Shown here: positions 445 through 694 of the stretch, piece after piece
Position numbering within the stretch: the stretch's first letter is position 1
Layout of the letters: each line of letters opens with the position of its first letter
Position numbers and translations under genes: made by a program
Source: Acidothermaceae bacterium
Lineage (GTDB): Bacteria > Actinomycetota > Actinomycetes > Acidothermales > Acidothermaceae
DNA: 10,290 nt
Assembly: GCA_025925185.1 (NCBI GenBank)
Contig: JAICLV010000088.1
Span: 1-10,290, forward strand
Direction of reading: 5' to 3'
Notes under the pieces: generated by a model
Told to the model about the DNA's origin: nothing
Seen by the model: only the letters and a program-made list of their open reading frames with translations
The model's database searches: none

Positions 445-694
445 GAGTGAGGAGTTGCCCCGGCGACGGGGCGTGAGCACGCGCAAGCACGACGAAACCA
501 GCCGGGCCGATGGCCCGTCTTGATACCCGACAGATCGGGCTCCGGCCACACCGGCCGGAGTCGCGCACCGGCAGCGACGGCGTCTCCTACGCCGCCGTCT
601 TCCGGTGCATGTCCGGCGTCACGTGCTGCCTGTCACGTGCCACGCGCCAACGTCACCTCCTCGCGCGGACGCGGTCACGGACGAGGAGGCGGCG
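445..694 (+). ncRNA. Highly structured 5' leader of rny, candidate cis-regulatory RNA
   Basis: This 250-nt stretch between the predicted start site and rny has no convincing gene but holds a chain of hairpins. They are: GCCCCG/CGGGGC closed by a GCGA (GNRA) tetraloop (457-472); CGGGCC/GGCCCG (503-517); CCCGA/TCGGG with loop CAGA (526-539); CTCCGGCC/GGCCGGAG with loop ACACC (540-560); GACGGCG/CGCCGTC (576-599); CACGTG/CACGTG (620-639); and an 8-bp stem that covers the ribosome binding site (656-689). It matches no riboswitch class I can recognise. Long structured leaders that mediate autoregulation are known for E. coli RNase E; a similar role here is inference. High GC content makes chance hairpins common, so covariation would be needed. 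Confidence 0.45.
656..689 (+). promoter_or_regulatory. Hairpin sequestering the rny Shine-Dalgarno sequence
   Basis: CCTCCTCG (656-663) is perfectly complementary to CGAGGAGG (682-689), forming an 8-bp stem with an 18-nt loop. The right arm contains the whole GAGGAGG Shine-Dalgarno sequence of rny (683-689), which sits 5 nt before the ATG. If folded, it would block ribosome access. A second partner for the anti-SD arm exists at the transcript 5' end: GAGGAG at 449-454 pairs with CTCCTC at 657-662, so a two-state switch is conceivable. Confidence 0.5.

Follow-up and report, generated by a model that had tools for sequence, protein, structure and literature searches.

A predicted folded mRNA leader before rny, with a promoter and an outline shared by many actinobacteria

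In Bacillus subtilis, RNase Y holds down its own production by cleaving the rny message at sites early in the coding frame and in the 5' UTR; the strongest 5' UTR cuts fall within the first 50 nt, which are A/U-rich and hold one stem-loop (PMC10303841). In Staphylococcus aureus, RNase Y was described as cutting better when AUA or one of a few other triplets follows the cut, and the model transcripts presented there required a downstream duplex (PMC11321564). For the B. subtilis enzyme, the motif given is weak, with GA across the cut and U before it, and structure often lies further downstream (PMC11780869). The RNase Y literature consulted for comparison deals with Firmicutes. Other leaders also bear on the subject. 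STAB-SDs are 5' stabilisers: their 5' end carries a Shine-Dalgarno (SD)-like sequence but no start codon that could be used with it. Furthermore, an actinobacterial cis-regulatory RNA, Actino-pnp RNA (RF01688), stands before an RNase gene, as the rny leader does. This RNA is tabulated in PMC2864571. Our search of the open full-text literature on RNase Y, rny leaders and autoregulation in Actinobacteria or Streptomyces found, at the level of titles and abstract openings, no description of the leader treated here.

Here we analysed a stretch of 10,290 nt (the window; contig JAICLV010000088.1, assembly GCA_025925185.1) from an Acidothermaceae bacterium. Judged by sequence comparison, its positions 445-694 are a conserved, folded leader of the rny mRNA with its own promoter and with an outline common to many actinobacteria. 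On the plus strand, to which all features below belong, rny occupies 695-2218 and encodes a 507-aa RNase Y with the Pfam domains RNase_Y_N, KH_1 and HD. Its nearest named homologs were Acidothermaceae MAG proteins, and further records held homologs with 88-99% identity. The promoter at 410-438 consists of TTGACC (-35, 410-415) and TAGCCT (-10, 433-438) separated by 17 nt; it was not in the output of a generic sigma-70 scan of the window. From the position of the -10 element, the rny transcript should start at about 446, and its 5' end would be the purine-rich, SD-like sequence AGTGAGGAG (446-454). The rny frame stays open in the 5' direction as far as a GTG at 605, so that RNase Y could formally be longer; the SD and the membrane segment favour the start at 695. 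Other frames were also seen in the leader. One of nine codons runs from a GTG at 447, where the transcript is presumed to start, to TGA 476; the related locus L087 has it too, and it could be a leaderless small ORF. Another, of 68 codons, was read by eye from an ATG at 510 into the rny start (510-716); this ATG is missing in L087. The gene upstream (1-373), which we take to resemble the end of a glutathionyl-hydroquinone reductase, reads in frame 1 to about 105 and then in frame 2 to a stop at 373. From its reading frames, the change is a frameshift or a sequencing error. A Pfam search with pieces of this gene gave no match, and its counterpart in L087 also appears broken.

Hairpins in 445-694 were searched as non-overlapping perfect stems of at least five Watson-Crick pairs with loops of up to 20 nt, and compared with 500 shuffles. 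The search returned exactly seven, as many successive hairpins as the original prediction had described, including its GNRA stem at 457-472 and its 8-bp stem at 540-560; the promoter with 17-nt spacing and the identity of the following gene as rny, which it had also proposed, were confirmed. Shuffles averaged 4.28 hairpins (P 0.03), and the summed stem pairs were 46 against 24.5 in shuffles, none of the 500 reaching the observed value. From 5' to 3', the stem search gave a 6-bp GNRA hairpin (GCCCCG-GCGA-CGGGGC, 457-472), a hairpin CGGGCC-GAU-GGCCCG (503-517), a hairpin CCCGA-CAGA-UCGGG (526-539) right after an AUA, the 8-bp hairpin (540-560), a hairpin region GACGGCG...CGCCGUC (576-599) and a hairpin CACGUG...CACGUG (620-639). 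Close to the gene, CCUCCUCG (656-663) can pair with CGAGGAGG (682-689) in a helix over the SD (656-689). The leader gave a fold z of -3.56 (445-694), and of -4.29 in a second leader-wide computation. Elsewhere in the window, z for twenty 250-nt segments ranged from -2.6 to +3.2, the segment at -2.6 overlapping the leader. The GNRA stem is displaced by other pairing in the global minimum-energy fold, yet it is the best local fold. A scan for terminator-like sites found none in the window leader. At the gathering threshold of Rfam 15 there was no match in the window or in 20 related loci, to Actino-pnp RNA or any other family, and below the threshold only weak ones appeared; this agrees with the earlier statement that the leader fits no recognised riboswitch class.

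Close comparison covered four Acidothermaceae-like leaders, those of the window, L087 (genome G060), L090 and L115; the order around G060 was represented by three genomes. The RNase Y of L087 is 88% identical and its leader 73% identical to those of the window, while L090 and L115 have the promoter and the leader ends in common with it. Identity between the window and L087, per 20 nt, was 0.80-0.90 in 394-473, 0.80 in 574-613 and 0.90 in 674-693, but 0.40-0.50 in 534-573 and 0.05 in 634-653; the yardstick, third codon positions of rny in the same pair, was 0.69. Since they exceed this yardstick, the promoter, the start of the leader, one inner hairpin (that of 576-599, 0.80 identity in L087) and the ribosome binding site appear to be under constraint, unlike the remainder. 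Conservation of the stems in close relatives was therefore partial: the leader start, 574-613 and the SD region rose above third codon positions, but the middle, with the weakly conserved 8-bp hairpin, did not, and the hairpin at 620-639 had no counterpart in L087, L090 or L115. Among the relatives examined the GNRA stem occurs in L087 only, where the copy is identical except for a final G-U. The SD helix recurs, as 7-8 bp and with differing letters, in each of the four leaders; P against shuffles was 0.065, 0.015, 0.075 and 0.075, and these values are not independent because the leaders are related.

For a wider survey, 393 genomes of one class were searched. RNase Y was matched in 128, although in four the match came near E 1e-4 only. 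Upstream regions of a further 60 were added, and rny starts were chosen by a hydrophobic N-terminus and an SD. The resulting 107 loci contain at least one genome twice (L008, L117). Three loci (L016, L020, L153) were dropped before the leaders were measured, as they had no usable start, and the nonredundant set comprised 61 of 88 leaders. The shortest leader measured 73 nt and the longest 511 nt, with most at 180-400 nt. Our results revealed that a promoter of the window's kind precedes rny in 91 of the 107 loci in a loose form (1.5 in shuffles) and in 43 in a strict form (0 in shuffles). An SD-like tetramer lies in about the first 17 nt of 57/61 leaders (20.5 shuffled) and a pentamer in 41 (5.1 shuffled). 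Furthermore, ATA occurs 36-60 nt after the -10 element in 49/61 leaders (4.6 in shuffles), and as ATAG in 32/61 (1.5 in shuffles). When the 50 of 61 leaders with ATA 34-60 nt past -10 were considered, a hairpin ended within 9 nt before the ATA in 44, against 18.2 in shuffles and at most 29 in 100 shuffles; these hairpins represent 22 distinct stems, mostly 5-6 nt from the ATA. Over 53 leaders the AUA is predicted to be unpaired at 0.67 versus 0.39, and A is frequent in the following 30 nt, by the standard of a GC-rich leader. Two clades have an almost unchanging stretch of ~45 nt at the leader's 5' end, with variation in its middle.

It is improbable that only the promoter and the initial transcribed sequence are conserved, with the hairpins as by-products of GC-rich DNA. 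The placement of hairpins before the ATA, the stem pairs of the window leader and a mean fold z of -1.42 over 87 leaders all speak against it, though shuffles of GC-rich leaders also yield many hairpins, the strict hairpin count exceeded shuffles in L090 (P 0.025) but not in L087 (0.16) or L115 (0.78), and the opposite strand of the window leader folds as well, with a z for 445-694 (-4.6) better than that of the sense strand. The window appears to be a variant of the shared layout: by eye, its hairpin 503-517 (with counterparts in L087 and L090), the linker UCUUG and the AUA at 523-525 follow one another in the usual order and at the usual distances. Because the extra GNRA hairpin stands first, the AUA of the window is 84 nt past -10, against about 40 in the common layout. 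Linker and AUA (518-525) form the candidate cleavage site, which reads UUG-AUA in the window, and UCUUG-AUAGC is identical in L087 and L173. The widely shared element is hairpin-linker-AUA (by this assignment 503-525 in the window) together with the purine-rich 5' end, not the GNRA stem.

Thirty-one sequences went into a covariance model, R1. Fourteen of the 61 leaders were left out by hand, including the four Acidothermaceae-like ones, and 31 of the remaining 47 were used; most had short spacing, and R1 is therefore biased towards it. On 98 sources, a subset of the loci, R1 gave 61 matches at E up to 5, but none to the window leader. On the 393 genomes it gave 58 matches at E up to 0.05. All 42 below E 1e-3 sit before rny, and the 16 weaker ones divide evenly, 8 before rny and 8 elsewhere; match positions and rny coordinates were compared by eye, with 14 candidates scored per genome. 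Since many matches are R1's own training sequences, this screen supports specificity more than breadth. The original prediction's claim of an undescribed cis-regulatory RNA gained from the recurrence of the promoter and the 5' module before rny, and from strong R1 matches there only, but the GNRA stem that it stressed was confined to L087 among the relatives. Covariation support for the leader stems is modest: stem columns of R1 were paired in 86.4% of cells against 79.7% in shuffles, and the covariation score was 0.222 against 0.120, with 0/500 shuffles as high. RNAalifold predicted no pair on the R1 alignment (A3). In whole-leader folds of the two clades, double changes were found in 2/38 and 8/64 predicted pairs.

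Could the conserved site be a stop codon? A short frame (GTG...) that begins where the transcript does might encode a leader peptide terminated at AUAG. Of the 31 leaders with TAG or TAA at the site and a start close to the 5' end, 18 are in frame; the window has its own frame from GTG 447 to TGA 476. However, the other 13 are out of frame or interrupted, 12 further leaders have no start, and the in-frame cases come mostly from two clades. Start codons at a usable distance after the SD-like 5' stretch are fewer than expected (10/57 versus 19). We consider a leader peptide quite improbable for these leaders, and as a general function a small upstream frame was ruled out on frame.

A riboswitch-like, two-state leader, in which the 5' module pairs alternately with itself and with the leader's 3' half, is very improbable. 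Complementarity between the 5' end and the 3' half did reach z below -2 in 22/56 leaders (mean -1.5) and is strong in some clades, and a conserved long-range pairing was predicted in a clade fold. But the long-range helix shows one-sided changes only, neither an Rfam match nor a terminator-like site was found, and the window leader has no excess complementarity (z +0.64). Long-range 5'-3' pairing was rejected as an account of the window. In six leaders (L119, L101, L124, L147, L125, L001) there is strong complementarity between the first 45 nt and the 3' half of the leader itself (z -3.2 to -6.1).

Taken together, the leader probably helps the cell to tune the amount of RNase Y made. We hold it to be evenly balanced whether 445-694 is a cis-acting control region through which excess RNase Y, by cutting at the AUA, keeps its own production in check in the manner of B. 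subtilis. The AUA would be where an endonuclease, RNase Y being the likeliest, attacks the message. With enzyme in excess, the cut would remove the protective 5' end and the hairpin and expose the rny message to a 5' exonuclease, and less RNase Y would be made; the helix over the SD may add translational damping. That RNase Y itself cuts at the AUA is a plausible inference, and feedback through its own leader, as demonstrated in B. subtilis, is sound as an idea. The module has a likeness to the RNase Y sites described above, with AUA after the cut in S. aureus and with U before and GA across the cut in B. subtilis, and UUG-AUA in the window agrees with both. But the base before the AUA is C in 34 and G in 14 of 53 leaders, and a hairpin immediately after it, as in the window, is rarer than chance (6/53 versus 17). 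Prevalent C and few downstream hairpins fit the known preferences of RNase Y poorly, and favour a rival in which the leader acts in cis under another factor and RNase Y makes no cut. That factor would be a different RNase or a protein that binds RNA at hairpin-AUAG. The conservation of promoter and 5' module and the R1 matches fit that rival too, and binding of RNA polymerase to rny mRNA is described for B. subtilis (PMC11077062). Strong R1 matches before rny only, among 393 genomes with few candidates scored in each, are more in keeping with feedback in cis than with a factor that has many targets, and we consider control by another factor unlikely.

For translational damping, the SD region was paired at 0.74 versus 0.68 in shuffles over 87 leaders, and most of 20 hand-picked leaders were no better than chance; SD sequestration was rejected as a general mechanism. 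It was retained for the four Acidothermaceae-like leaders only, in which a predicted helix can cover the SD. A bolder reading of the RNase Y feedback, possible but doubtful, is an undescribed RNA device that combines a ribosome-binding 5' cap lacking a frame with an AUA cleavage site positioned by a hairpin. One cut would take off the cap and commit the message to decay, which would let the mRNA gauge free RNase Y by titration, and in some clades pairing of the 5' module with the leader's 3' half instead would make the device a two-state switch. A leader common to many actinomycetes and absent from Rfam suggests that rny feedback reaches well beyond B. subtilis. In addition, these leaders amount to a ready-made set of candidate cleavage sites, embedded in GC-rich RNA where AUA is conspicuous, with which RNase Y recognition would become directly testable.

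Compared with known systems, E. coli rne is similar in that an RNase gene stands under a long structured leader. It is different in its enzyme, RNase E, and in a leader stem-loop that is described as bound rather than cut (PMC10303841). With STAB-SDs the actinomycete rny leaders have in common the SD-like 5' end (57/61) and the scarcity of start codons (10/57 versus 19 expected), judged from predicted 5' ends, but the motif in rny leaders is shorter and varied, and a stabilising role is a candidate one here. The closest counterpart is the leader of the same gene in B. subtilis, for which cleavage has been shown, whereas that of the actinomycete leaders is putative; that 5' UTR is given as 164 nt with 76% A/U in the first 50 nt, while those described here are GC-rich and mostly 180-400 nt (PMC10303841). 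As there, the leader lies before rny, here behind a promoter, the transcript start being a predicted one in our case. The B. subtilis leader has a strong SD able to sit in secondary structure (PMC10303841), and a comparable ribosome binding site may exist here: helices of 7-8 bp are predicted in the four Acidothermaceae-like leaders, and over 87 leaders the SD region pairs at 0.74 versus 0.68. Finally, the one stem-loop described near the A/U-rich 5' end of the B. subtilis message, with A-rich sequence around it (PMC10303841), may have its likeness in the hairpin, AUA and relatively A-rich stretch of most actinomycete leaders, to which the window adds an extra hairpin.
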